DNA of 7,477 nucleotides, from the NCBI GenBank assembly GCA_001803565.1, contig MHDQ01000236.1, positions 1 through 7,477 on the forward strand. The letters are read 5' to 3'. Positions 3,138-7,477 of the stretch are shown here, piece after piece. Below the pieces are notes generated by a model, which ran no database searches, was not told the origin of the DNA, and saw only the letters and a list, made by a program, of their open reading frames with translations. The stretch comes from Nitrospinae bacterium RIFCSPLOWO2_12_FULL_45_22. Lineage in GTDB: Bacteria > 2-12-FULL-45-22. The translations under genes and the position numbers were made by a program. Every line of letters starts with the position of its first letter. Within the stretch, counting starts at the first letter, position 1.

Positions 3138-3201
3138 TTACCTACATCTACCTACATCGTGCTAACAGCATGGACATCCATCCTTTATAGAGGTGATCAA
3201 G

Positions 3202-3465
3202 ATGCCCAGGACTATTGAAGCCATTTATGAAGACGGGGTCTTTAAACCCCTTACAAAACCACGCCTTAAGGAGCATGAAAAGGTAGAATTGACTATTGCT
3301 ACCAAATCTGAAACTGACGAGGCTGTTAAAAATGCCCTCAGCATTATTGGTGTAGGTGAAAGACCTTTTAAAGATAGCTCTGTAAAATATGACAATTACC
3401 TCTACGGCAAGAAACGTTTTTTGCAATCTCCTTACATCCAATCTGATTCTTGTAGAAACCTTTAA
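3202..3465 (+). CDS. DUF104 (AF2212/PG0164)-type antitoxin with a frameshifted C-terminal tail
   Basis: The first 55 residues match the DUF104 antitoxin pattern: PRTIEAIYEDGVFKPL, then LKEHEKVELTI. This family is encoded just upstream of PIN-domain ribonuclease toxins and binds and neutralises them. The ATG at 3202 has a GAGGTGAT ribosome binding site. The in-frame GTG at 3193 lies inside that site, so I did not use it. The family usually ends soon after a YLYG-like motif, seen here at residues 66-69. The remaining residues (KKRFLQSPY... to 87) look like out-of-frame toxin sequence, so the natural stop and the toxin start appear to have been deleted. The antitoxin core may still fold. Its partner toxin is broken, and the overlapping frame immediately downstream holds the remains. 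Confidence 0.75.
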   Translation: MPRTIEAIYEDGVFKPLTKPRLKEHEKVELTIATKSETDEAVKNALSIIGVGERPFKDSSVKYDNYLYGKKRFLQSPYIQSDSCRNL

Positions 3466-3685
3466 TCTCCTCTCCAGGACTATAGGCAGTAAGGCCACCG
3501 TCAAATTCGGTGATGCGCTTAAAACCACTGTCTTCCTTACAATAGAACCCGTCACTTCTGTTGACTGGGAGAGAGGCTGGGGCAATACGGGTTTAATGCT
3601 TTCCCATAGTCTTTTTGATCTGAAAGATTCTAATTTTGTAGTTGGCCTTATTAAAGGAAAGAGGAGATTATTGGTTATTGGGTAA
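3413..3685 (+). pseudogene. Remnant of a VapC-like PIN-domain toxin, N-terminally truncated
   Basis: In the frame one base ahead of the antitoxin, about 90 codons read as the middle and C-terminal part of a PIN-domain ribonuclease: LLTSNLILVETFNLLSR, then KATVKFGDALKTT and EPVTSVDWERGW. The Glu in LVETF matches the conserved second acidic residue of PIN proteins. The first block (usually hVDTS with the first catalytic Asp, plus roughly 30-40 residues) is absent. No start codon or ribosome binding site belongs to this frame, and the C-terminus (LIKGKRRLLVIG) does not show the usual SFTDC-type acidic motif. I infer that a deletion fused the antitoxin end to the toxin middle and changed frame. 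It is unlikely to be active. Confidence 0.65.
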
Positions 3686-3848
3686 GAGGAGATTGTGAGT
3701 GAGTGAGTGAGTGAGTGAGTGAGTGAGTGAGTGAGTGCAATTTGGGGGCCATGCTGGAGTACGATGCTGTGATTGAGCGGCAATGACTGGAAATGACTGG
3801 AGTCGTCGCACTCCGGAGATCACGATAAATAGAATTAGTGCTGGTCAT
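3675..3848 (-). CDS. Short ORF behind the riboswitch, ends in Thr-His-Ser-Leu repeats; probably a decayed gene
   Basis: This is the first reading frame downstream of the c-di-GMP riboswitch terminator on the same strand. ATG at 3848 is preceded by GAGGGG at suitable spacing, as expected for a riboswitch-controlled start. The frame begins MTSTNSIYRDLRSATT, matches no family I recognise, then runs through the GTGA microsatellite (read as THSLTHSL) and stops at 3675 after 57 residues. The start is credible, but the body looks like non-coding or degenerate sequence. I infer that the original regulated gene was lost or truncated here. Confidence 0.3.
   Translation of the reverse strand: MTSTNSIYRDLRSATTPVISSHCRSITASYSSMAPKLHSLTHSLTHSLTHSQSPLTQ
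3695..3737. repeat. GTGA tetranucleotide microsatellite, about 10.75 copies
   Basis: A perfect period-4 tract of 43 bases lies immediately 3' of the PIN-toxin remnant. Such tracts expand and contract by slippage. It lies inside the short riboswitch-proximal frame on the minus strand, where the copies read as repeated Thr-His-Ser-Leu, and copy-number change would shift that frame. Confidence 0.95.
3782..3801. repeat. Tandem 10-bp duplication (aatgactgga x2)
   Basis: Two perfect adjacent copies of AATGACTGGA lie between the microsatellite and the riboswitch. With the GTGA tract, this makes 3690-3805 a low-complexity, slippage-prone stretch. Confidence 0.8.
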
Positions 3849-3867: not shown

Positions 3868-3928
3868 AAAAAAACCGGACTGCTGAAATAACAATAATAC
3901 ATAAATTATTGTCACCTCGGCAGCCCGG
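3868..3928 (-). terminator. Intrinsic terminator (expression platform of the c-di-GMP riboswitch)
   Basis: On the minus strand, two 24-base arms (3928-3905 and 3898-3875) pair around a 6-base loop, with four G:U pairs and one C.A mismatch. They are followed directly by seven U (3874-3868), the classic rho-independent arrangement. The first 16 bases of the 5' arm (3928-3913) are also the 3' end of the riboswitch aptamer, including its P1 strand. The two structures are therefore mutually exclusive. Ligand-bound aptamer should block the hairpin, which predicts an ON switch; this last step is inference. Confidence 0.85.
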
Positions 3929-4043
3929 CTGGCTTGAACGTCACCCCCACCCTGACCCTCCCCCATCGAGGGGGAGGGAAAAGATGGAAAGCCCCGTAGC
4001 TTTGCGCCCTGTCCTCACGGACAGTTTGCCCTGATAGAAGGTG
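3913..4043 (-). ncRNA. Cyclic di-GMP-I (GEMM) riboswitch aptamer
   Basis: Read on the minus strand, the hallmark blocks occur in order. P1 is CACCTT (4043-4038) pairing with GAGGTG (3918-3913). Then comes GGGCAAAC (4031-4024), a hairpin CTGTCC-GTGA-GGACAG (4024-4009) with a GNRA tetraloop, GCGCAAAGC (ending at 3999), a second variable stem, and AGCCGGGCTGCCGAGG. By alignment to the Vibrio Vc2 aptamer from memory, the ligand-contacting G20, A47 and C92 equivalents are present (about 4029, 4002 and 3920). G at position 20 favours c-di-GMP over the A20 type that binds cGAMP. The aptamer is longer than the usual 85-100 nt because of a repeat in the second stem. A terminator overlaps its 3' end. 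Confidence 0.88.
3936..3988. repeat. REP-like GC-rich hairpin repeat inside the riboswitch's variable stem
   Basis: The segment contains a perfect 9-bp inverted repeat, CCCTCCCCC (3956-3964) and GGGGGAGGG (3970-3978), around ATCGA, preceded by CACCCCCACCCTGA. From general knowledge, this wording recurs as a dispersed intergenic element in several environmental bacterial genomes. It lies between the GGCTT (3993-3989) and AAGCC (3935-3931) strands that close the riboswitch's second stem, so it would replace the variable loop without touching the ligand pocket. Confidence 0.7.
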
Positions 4044-4047
4044 TTAT

Positions 4048-4053
4048 ATTGTA
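4048..4053 (-). promoter_or_regulatory. Possible -10 box for the riboswitch transcript
   Basis: TACAAT (minus strand, five of six consensus bases) ends five bases before the aptamer P1 strand, so transcription would begin at or next to P1. No convincing -35 element lies 16-18 bases upstream, so this is tentative. Confidence 0.3.
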
Positions 4054-4327: not shown

Positions 4328-4699
4328 ATGTTAGGACCAATAACAAAGTCTGTAACTTTACCGCCTGTTAGGTGGCTTAGCCCGGTTGAATGGTCAGCAT
4401 TGGAGAAGTATTGCGAAAGTGCCCGCTCCCTTTACGGGGATCGTATACACGAGATGATCCTTTTTGGTTCCAGGGTACGGGGTGAGGGATACGAGGAGTC
4501 TGATCTGGATGTCGCGATGATCATAACTACAGAAGATTCAAATCTAAGTCGTGAATTATACGACATGGCAACAGAGTTATGGCTGGAGACGGAAATAAAG
4601 ATCTCCCCGCTGGTGTTTTCGATAAAAGAATACGAACTGCTCTTACAGATGAAAAAGGGGATTGCTGTGGCTATCCATAACGAGGGTGTGGCGTTATGA
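4328..4699 (+). CDS. MNT-family nucleotidyltransferase, antitoxin partner of a HEPN protein
   Basis: The 123-residue protein has the minimal nucleotidyltransferase signature: LFGSRVRGEG at residues 45-54 and SDLDVAM at 58-64. This gives GS-x10-DxD (G47, S48, D59, D61), the metal- and NTP-binding site. The third carboxylate usually found on a later strand is not obvious; the matching region reads EIKISPLVF. Proteins of this kind (MntA type) neutralise HEPN toxins by adding AMP to them, and I infer the same here. Its stop overlaps the HEPN start as ATGA, indicating translational coupling. ATG 4328 has no Shine-Dalgarno sequence, but a -10 box lies just upstream; an internal TTG around 4400 is a less likely alternative start. 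Confidence 0.85.
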   Translation: MLGPITKSVTLPPVRWLSPVEWSALEKYCESARSLYGDRIHEMILFGSRVRGEGYEESDLDVAMIITTEDSNLSRELYDMATELWLETEIKISPLVFSIKEYELLLQMKKGIAVAIHNEGVAL

Positions 4700-5088
4700 C
4701 ACCGGAAGAGATAAGAGAGAATATTCGGTTGGAAATGGATGCCGGCAATGAGGCCCTGGAGGCTGCAAGGAGCCTTGTGAAGCAGGCACTCTACCGGAGC
4801 GCCATGTCCCGGGCTTACTATGGGTTATTTCATTATATCAAGGCACTCCTCTACACCCGTGGACTTGAGCCAAAGAGTCATGAAGGATTGGAACACCTGT
4901 TCGGACTCCATTTTGTAAAGGCCGGGAAGGTGGATGTGAAGAGTGCAAAACTGCTCGCACGTCTGCAAAAATATCGTGAGCGGTCTGACTATGGACTGGT
5001 TACCTTTTTTACGAAAGAGGATGTTGAGCAAGAGCTGGCAGAGGTTGATAGCTTCCTGCAATGTATACAGGACTACTTGAAAATTTAG
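4696..5088 (+). CDS. HEPN-domain protein (COG1895-like), presumed toxin of the MNT/HEPN pair
   Basis: This 130-residue, mostly helical protein carries the HEPN core motif YRSAMSRAYYGLFHYIKAL (residues 33-51), typical of small HEPN proteins encoded next to nucleotidyltransferases. Near the C-terminus, YRERSDYG (93-100) occupies the place of the catalytic RNase motif. It has Arg and Tyr, but Asp98 where Rx4-6H proteins have His, as is common in this subgroup. It may therefore be a weak nuclease or act by another route. It is coupled to the upstream nucleotidyltransferase gene by a 4-base overlap, and its end faces the convergent minus-strand genes with a 24-base gap. Confidence 0.85.
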   Translation: MTPEEIRENIRLEMDAGNEALEAARSLVKQALYRSAMSRAYYGLFHYIKALLYTRGLEPKSHEGLEHLFGLHFVKAGKVDVKSAKLLARLQKYRERSDYGLVTFFTKEDVEQELAEVDSFLQCIQDYLKI

Positions 5089-5439: not shown

Positions 5440-5919
5440 TTATGACACCTTCATCAAGGTGTCACAGAACTTAATTAGCTCACTTGAAAAATTCCTGACC
5501 GTATCTTCAAATGAAGAAACAAGCTCTTCCAGCTTAGATTCGTCCAGTTGGAAGCCGTAAGCCTGTCTAACCACATGCCTAAAACCAAGAAATAGTCTTA
5601 GGCTGTTGTAAAGACCAGGGGAAATCACAGGCGGCCTAACCCCTGCAATCTCTATCGTCATGTTTATCAATAGCCTCTTGTGCCATTCCTCTCCCTGTGG
5701 AATACCACCATCAATCTCGGTTGCTATTATCTGAAAAACTCTTTCAATACCCATATAAAAATCTGCTAAATAGGATGCCTTTACTCGCAACAGATACTTG
5801 TCTACGGTCTTATATTTATTAATGAACTCGTTGTATTCATCGCGTAATCTATGGATGTTGGATAGTTCTGCATTTATCTCAGAAACGATACGCCTGACTA
5901 ATATTTCATTGCCGTTCAT
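5440..5919 (-). CDS. HepT-like HEPN-domain protein, presumed toxin
   Basis: The 159-residue helical protein contains LYNSLRLFLGFRHVVRQAYG then FQLD (residues 103-126), the hallmark block of HepT-like HEPN proteins paired with nucleotidyltransferases. Canonical HepT toxins have RX4HXY. Here the motif reads R114-HVVR-Q119-A-Y121, with Gln where the catalytic His is expected; RHxVRN-type variants also occur in this family. RNase activity is thus uncertain. The start ATG 5919 lies within the end of the nucleotidyltransferase gene (14-base overlap) with AAGGAAAG upstream, so the two are translated together. The last codons form a 9-bp hairpin spanning the stop region. An unknown 87-aa gene follows after 63 bases. 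Confidence 0.8.
   Translation of the reverse strand: MNGNEILVRRIVSEINAELSNIHRLRDEYNEFINKYKTVDKYLLRVKASYLADFYMGIERVFQIIATEIDGGIPQGEEWHKRLLINMTIEIAGVRPPVISPGLYNSLRLFLGFRHVVRQAYGFQLDESKLEELVSSFEDTVRNFSSELIKFCDTLMKVS
5443..5464. repeat. Perfect 9-bp inverted repeat at the 3' end of the HepT-like gene
   Basis: TGACACCTT (5443-5451) and AAGGTGTCA (5456-5464) surround a 4-base loop. It covers the last coding codons and touches the stop codon. Neither strand has a following U-tract, so it is more likely an mRNA-stability or translational structure than a terminator. Confidence 0.6.
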
Positions 5920-6247
5920 AAATGATCTTTCCTTTCTCGTAATAGTTTTGCATCCTTTCTGTAGCGCCTTCCATTGGTATCAAATCCACACCAAATTCAT
6001 CTGACTCTGCAATCAGATCTCCGAGGGCACGAAAATAGTCTGAATCAGCGAGACCTTCTACACACAGGTCTATGTCTGAATGAGAATGAAAATGCTTCTC
6101 GTCAAGGCACGACCCTATAAGGACAATCTTCTTCACTCTATATTCCCCAGCAAGGATACTGGCAAGTTTATCTATGACAATCCGCGCCTTCTGAAACCTG
6201 TCTTTTTTTTGTCTCTCCCGAAGGATGATGAAGTTATATTGTGGCAT
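5906..6247 (-). CDS. MNT-family nucleotidyltransferase, antitoxin partner of the HepT-like protein
   Basis: From ATG 6247 the protein has 113 residues. VLIGSCLDEKHFHSHSDIDL gives GS (45-46), 11 residues, then D58-x-D60; VDLIP (D88) supplies the third carboxylate, so the active site looks complete. This is the pattern of MntA-type enzymes that AMPylate and silence HepT toxins; the role here is inferred from family and context. A TTG at 6259 would add four residues, but the promoter at 6268-6296 predicts transcription starting near 6261. The TTG would then be almost leaderless with its GGTGG outside the message, so I prefer the ATG. The gene overlaps the HepT-like gene by 14 bases. Confidence 0.8.
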   Translation of the reverse strand: MPQYNFIILRERQKKDRFQKARIVIDKLASILAGEYRVKKIVLIGSCLDEKHFHSHSDIDLCVEGLADSDYFRALGDLIAESDEFGVDLIPMEGATERMQNYYEKGKIIYERQ

Positions 6248-6267
6248 AAGTTTGCTCAATATCCACC

Positions 6268-7003: not shown

Positions 7004-7477
7004 TCACTGTGTACCGGCAATAGGTAGGGTAAACAGAAACCTGCTCCCGTGGTTCAGTCCCTCCAATGGGGACTCTGCCCAGATCCTTCCCCCATGGGCC
7101 TCTATAGTTTGGCGGCAGAAGGGGAGGCCAAGACCCATCCCCATCTTTCCACCAAAACTGGTAGACTCCGCCTTAAAATACTTCTCGAAGAAGATCCTCT
7201 CAATATCTTTTAGGGCAATGGCCTTCCCCTGGTTTGTGACACTTACCTGAACCTGATTACCCAGTCTCCTGACGGCAATCTCTACACATCATCTATCATG
7301 GCCAGGAGAAGTTCACAGGTATCCCGTGTGGCGGTCATGATGGGGGATTTTTTCTCATCCAGCTCGCCATAGTACCCCTGAATCAGATTATCGAGCGATT
7401 GGGCCGTTGCCAATATGGGATTGCGGATGTCATGGGCCAGCATATTCATCGTCTCCTCTTTGTGTCTTTCCAGATAG
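7004..7477 (-). pseudogene. Histidine kinase 3' part, disrupted by internal deletion and frameshift (5' end outside window)
   Basis: Two frames carry one kinase. Codons from 7476 to TAG 7282 read YLERHKEETMNMLAHDIRNP...LLAMIDDV, a HisKA dimerisation domain with the phospho-accepting His in LAHDIRNP. From 7285 to TGA 7004, a different frame reads EIAVRRLGNQVQVSVTNQG, FFEKYFKAES and MGMGLGLPFCRQTIEAHGGR, then FTLPI: the end of the HATPase domain with F-box and G2-box. The N-box and the segment linking it to the H-box, roughly 70-85 residues, are missing at the junction. ATP binding is therefore lost unless the read is misassembled. The sequence lies directly upstream of its cognate response regulator gene. 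Confidence 0.85.

Follow-up and report, generated by a model that had tools for sequence, protein, structure and literature searches.

A c-di-GMP-I riboswitch on the minus strand of the window (the whole stretch of 7,477 nt that was analysed) appears to gate a long transcript leading to a 58-aa open reading frame (ORF) and to the gene of a secreted surface protein with FG-GAP and TSP3 repeats. The switch would thus be no orphan and would stand at the start of a partly scrambled leader, a reading given a probability of about 0.6. As a whole, the best explanation, held with the same confidence, makes the switch a member of a lineage-specific Nitrospirota cassette that governs large secreted surface proteins. 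Several observations support gating: the aptamer itself, a terminator that excludes the aptamer fold, conservation of both, the surface-protein genes found behind relatives, and a vapBC module whose position is shared with a second genome (G154). On the other side, the distance to the surface gene is much greater than in the relatives. The features of the locus are listed in Table 1.

Table 1. Features of the riboswitch locus, in window coordinates.
Feature	Position	Strand	Basis
Likely promoter -10 region, TACAAT (4053-4048) or TATAAC (4048-4043)	4043-4053	-	Read from the sequence, just 5' of the aptamer
c-di-GMP-I aptamer (P1; P2 with GUGA loop; P3 with 54-nt loop)	3915-4041	-	RF01051, 58.4 bits; RF03167, 59.4 bits
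Dispersed G-rich palindromic repeat within the P3 loop	3941-3978	-	Many copies in G172, G146, G145 and others
Intrinsic terminator, 5' arm sharing aptamer bases 3915-3930	3868-3930	-	Fold of -35.6 kcal/mol; hairpin retained by 24 of 25 switches
Conserved leader start (MTSTNSIYRDLRSA...) in a 57-codon frame that continues into the repeat array	3675-3848	-	Start shared with G195, G200 and G188, where it also follows the switch
Sigma-54-like -24/-12 element TGGCCCCCAAATTGCA	3736-3751	-	10/12 consensus match
Tetranucleotide array (TCAC)n, 10 units	3695-3738	-	Sequence
vapBC: AF2212-like antitoxin ORF (3193-3465) and VapC remnant lacking two blocks	3193-3685	+	PF01954, 55.8 bits; intact homologue at the same place in G154
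58-aa ORF with strong Shine-Dalgarno sequence and hydrophobic segment	2873-3049	-	Start region also in G154
Secreted surface protein (FG-GAP, TSP3 repeats), truncated by the contig end	2-2797	-	Probable start ATG 2797; listed frame from 2860

The GEMM-I identity of the minus-strand RNA, proposed from its signature blocks in the original prediction, was borne out by RF01051, which matched 3915-4039 over model positions 1-87 of 87 with 58.4 bits (gathering score 35; E 1e-10 for the whole assembly). Neither RF01051 nor the sister model RF03167 (c-di-GMP-I-GGC) gave a second match across the window's own assembly. P1 is short, with CCUU (4041-4038) pairing with GAGG (3918-3915). The RNA has the sequence and structure of the class, a GNRA loop on P2 and, in our own alignment, G, A, and C at the bases aligned to G20, A47, and C92, which we take to be the ligand-contacting bases in Vc2 numbering; it differs from the usual members in its 54-nt P3 loop, largely a dispersed repeat, and in the distance to the next intact gene. 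Its ligand is presumably c-di-GMP. It is very improbable that the RNA is a true c-di-GMP-I-GGC variant, perhaps with a different ligand. In cmscan RF03167 did score 1 bit above RF01051, yet it passed its own gathering score of 59 only marginally, by 0.4 bit, and both scores are disturbed by the long loop insert. The RF03167 consensus has G at the A47 position (GCGAAGC), presumably the G to which GGC in its name refers, whereas the window reads GCAAAGC and has the canonical bases at the equivalents of G20 and C92. Since the apparently distinguishing base is A here, the RNA is filed as an ordinary c-di-GMP-I riboswitch.

Some members of the class have A instead of G at the G20 position (L040; L078 in G146:C156; L082 in G163:C31), a replacement linked to c-GAMP sensing among GEMM-I RNAs, and close relatives of these switches keep G there, even within one genome. 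With regard to the start of the transcript, no good -35 box was seen upstream of the likely -10 region, which was not listed by a consensus promoter scan either. The DNA upstream of the aptamer is nearly identical in G146:C156.

Most of the P3 loop is a palindromic repeat that is abundant in Nitrospirota, occurring in dozens of places in both G172 and G146. The window's own assembly contains one other similar copy, and a search of it allowing 3 mismatches returned the window's copy only. When genome contigs were scanned for a GEMM junction followed by the same palindrome, two more switches were found (L040 and L041, both in Nitrospirae MAGs), which share approximately 91-94% identity with the window outside the loop, terminator included; the six further matches of that scan were unrelated, with the repeat lying beside a chance 12-mer. 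Among 18 parsable related aptamers, the P3 loop measured either 9-20 nt or 51-109 nt, a count somewhat biased because covariance models are more tolerant of inserts at this site than at others, and most of the long loops are multi-copy palindromes. A riboswitch family that repeatedly takes dispersed repeats into its P3 loop shows which parts of the RNA are constrained.

Immediately downstream, the terminator hairpin comprises 25 pairs (5' arm 3930-3905, 3' arm 3898-3873) and a U tract running to 3868. Its 5' arm had been predicted to reuse the final 16 bases of the aptamer, and the overlap is exactly that, so that the two folds are mutually exclusive and the ON-type architecture holds by structure. 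The hairpin is retained by 24 of the 25 class members compared, with two-sided (compensatory) changes at several pairs, and the shared bases are kept in relatives, consistent with an expression platform able to switch with the aptamer. Because the terminator takes up these bases, we infer a transcriptional ON switch. When the ligand is absent, the last 16 bases of the aptamer would join the terminator and transcription would halt near 3868; with c-di-GMP, P1 and P3 would keep the shared bases and the polymerase would pass that point. The pilM riboswitch of Geobacter metallireducens (PMC9262584) has an ON platform of the same type, with the 3' strand of the aptamer inside the terminator and folds that exclude each other. 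It senses c-GAMP, and the window differs from it in having G instead of A at the G20 position.

A DNA search with the 3' half of the aptamer and the terminator as query showed that 13 of 395 Nitrospirota genomes (best candidates per genome scored) contain relatives sharing the aptamer end and the terminator; with RF01051, about 28 switches of the class were collected from these 13. Most of these relatives lie at most 350 nt ahead of genes for large secreted proteins that carry N-terminal hydrophobic segments. Pfam searches of the proteins behind them returned RHS/PD40, Kelch/fn3, DUF11, MopE-motif, and DUF7948 matches, and five further downstream proteins were judged by eye. The exceptional genes, as judged by eye from the sequence, encode a PilZ-like protein, NtrC-type activators, a response regulator, and a histidine kinase. 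A literature search, with most subscription journals outside its coverage, found no paper describing this cassette. In uncultured Nitrospirota, such a cassette would tie large, repeat-rich secreted proteins to c-di-GMP.

One locus (L146, G301:C17) carries three switches of the class within approximately 5 kb, two before genes for NtrC-type activators and one before that of a secreted protein of about 1500 aa. In addition, a weak GEMM-like match (L035, 7179-7286 on the minus strand of G001:C58; 33.9 bits) lies 27 nt past an aminotransferase stop codon and precedes an apparent integron-integrase remnant.

The original prediction noted that no intact gene stands directly behind the window's switch and offered three explanations: an orphaned riboswitch, control of the surface-protein operon, or a c-di-GMP-responsive RNA antisense to the vapBC remnant. 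The observation is literally correct, but the short frame found there is a conserved leader start. The sequence MTSTNS(I/M)YRDLRSA follows the terminator in G195, G200, and G188 as in the window, with related starts in G154 and G145:C51. Because the same ORF start recurs in this position, the 57-codon frame reads as a leader start common to part of the family and not as a chance frame. In G188 the leader start runs straight into a signal peptide, and that gene is interrupted further on. A copy of the leader without a switch also occurs (L259, G146:C53). A 211-aa frame (3148-3783, minus strand) was rejected as the regulated gene, as it is antisense to vapBC.

In G154 the order is switch, leader, reversed vapBC, and the start of a small ORF like that of the window, after which the contig ends. 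There both vapC (134 aa) and vapB (83 aa) are intact, while the window's vapC is missing two blocks of about 110-120 nt each. Since the same order is found with an intact module, the insertion is, on this comparison, shared by both genomes and not recent, and the module has decayed in the window's lineage. The long gap would then have arisen when vapBC landed reversed behind the leader. The conserved leader and the old reversed insertion together mostly explain the puzzle of the missing gene, and an apparent orphan riboswitch is in this way explained by comparison with relatives.

The best-supported of the three explanations is control of the surface-protein operon, since the genes behind relatives of this very switch encode large secreted proteins. 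The read-through transcript would cross the leader, the repeat array, and, in antisense, the vapBC remnant before reaching the 58-aa ORF, 0.82 kb from the switch, and the surface-protein gene, about 1.07 kb from it. No convincing minus-strand terminator was found between 3868 and 3049, where one weak site was seen against 1.7 expected. Read-through to this particular surface gene is presumed: no relative with the same gene behind its switch was found, the G154 contig ending too early. A search of viral contigs gave no relatives of the 58-aa ORF. The 0.8 kb of untranslated read-through could be exposed to Rho-dependent termination, and the sigma-54-like element 3' of the terminator could make transcription of the surface gene independent of the switch.

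It is rather unlikely that the vapBC insertion severed the gene and left the switch decoupled, a relic driving the short leader only. The nearest intact same-strand ORF is indeed 0.82 kb away, the leader frame stops right after the array, and vapC has decayed; however, neither aptamer nor terminator is damaged, the repeat has inserted into the only loop that tolerates it, no strong terminator intervenes, and the arrangement persists in a second species. That the read-through transcript serves as a c-di-GMP-responsive antisense RNA against vapBC is quite improbable. The geometry allows it, vapBC being antisense to the switch in the window and also in G154, where it is intact, and genome surveys have led to proposals of antisense-acting c-di-GMP riboswitches (PMC9943018); against this, VapC is destroyed in the window and other family members have no vapBC behind the switch. 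A stand-alone c-di-GMP-binding RNA, or sponge, has a precedent in merRNA of Bdellovibrio (PMC3627812), which is likewise a c-di-GMP-I RNA with no obvious gene behind it. However, merRNA is 445 nt long and massively expressed, whereas the window's relatives have genes directly behind the switch and the terminator in a short transcript would use up the 3' end of the aptamer, which makes a sponge extremely improbable here.

Gating of the surface-protein transcript may be combined with a second element. Arrays of TCAC or TCAG with 7-10 units lie behind six switches, the window's among them. In G145, G163, G195, and G200, all arrays of at least 7 units are located within approximately 350 nt behind a switch, and in G172 three arrays are located elsewhere, away from switches. 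The window's array lies inside the leader frame, directly 3' of the sigma-54-like element, a predicted promoter that matches TGGC-N8-TTGC at 10 of 12 positions, and no surface gene is in frame behind it. Across Nitrospirota, a sigma-54-like site scoring 9/12 or better lies no more than 45 nt upstream of 35 of 37 arrays, that of the window included; nearly all of these sites abut the array, and 9% of background stretches reach this score. MAPKLHS was considered as a conserved peptide motif and set aside, since a sigma-54-like element describes the DNA equally well or better.

With regard to the role of array length, G163 has one copy that shares the reading frame of a protein of about 980 aa and a second that does not. 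In G195 (10 units) and G200 (9 units), the same gene follows, neither array is in frame with the leader, and the gene has its own plausible start; a reading-frame role is therefore suggestive only. Arrays away from riboswitches are mostly not in ORFs, so a promoter-related role competes with it. The arrays would suggest phase variation combined with c-di-GMP control. It is tentatively proposed, as a possibility more doubtful than not, that one Nitrospirota lineage stacks a c-di-GMP ON riboswitch with a slippage-prone TCAC/TCAG array that follows a sigma-54-like element within a translated leader, thus forming a two-key gate. Surface proteins would then be made only with high c-di-GMP and the right repeat number, which would join a second messenger to phase variation in a testable combination of riboswitch and repeat-based variation.

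Partial parallels are known. In Clostridioides difficile, Cd1 and the invertible flagellar switch before flgB (PMC5386303) likewise place a phase-variation element between a c-di-GMP-I riboswitch and the first ORF; Cd1 is an OFF switch and its element is inverted by a recombinase, whereas the window has a predicted ON switch and a tetranucleotide array that is a candidate for variation only. In the repeat-modulated NadA and SabA adhesin systems (PMC2791445, PMC4081817), simple repeats lie near the promoter of a surface-protein gene, as they would in the window; no riboswitch is involved there, while the window's array follows a sigma-54-like element.

At the Nitrospirota loci L154-L176 and L184-L196, sigma-54-like -24/-12 elements are followed immediately by TCAC/TCAG arrays of 7-14 units. 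Most of these arrays lie outside ORFs, and several have a terminator-like hairpin within the next 100 nt. Rfam gave no match for array loci away from riboswitches. These loci may encode small RNAs driven by sigma-54, or leaders whose 5' ends vary.

The window is the entire contig C236 of a 321-contig MAG whose phylum is represented by two genomes in the comparison set. Its tetranucleotide profile correlates at 0.73 with sampled contigs of its own bin, 0.82 with G195, and 0.77 with G146, the Nitrospirota pools being blurred by some sampled stretches masked as N. Most sampled contigs of the bin reach about 0.9, which marks the window as a compositional outlier, and parts of it are 87-95% identical to G146:C156. 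To judge from composition and identity, the contig is likely Nitrospirota DNA, either mis-binned or recently transferred; the anatomy of the locus is unchanged by its provenance. A similar compositional outlier was seen at L207 (G000:C90). Elsewhere in the window, a histidine-kinase gene (7004-7477, minus strand) is split into two frames around 7282 by mutation or assembly error. Two further HEPN/nucleotidyltransferase-type pairs lie at 4328-5088 (plus strand) and 5440-6259 (minus strand), and with vapBC counted the contig carries three toxin-antitoxin-like modules.
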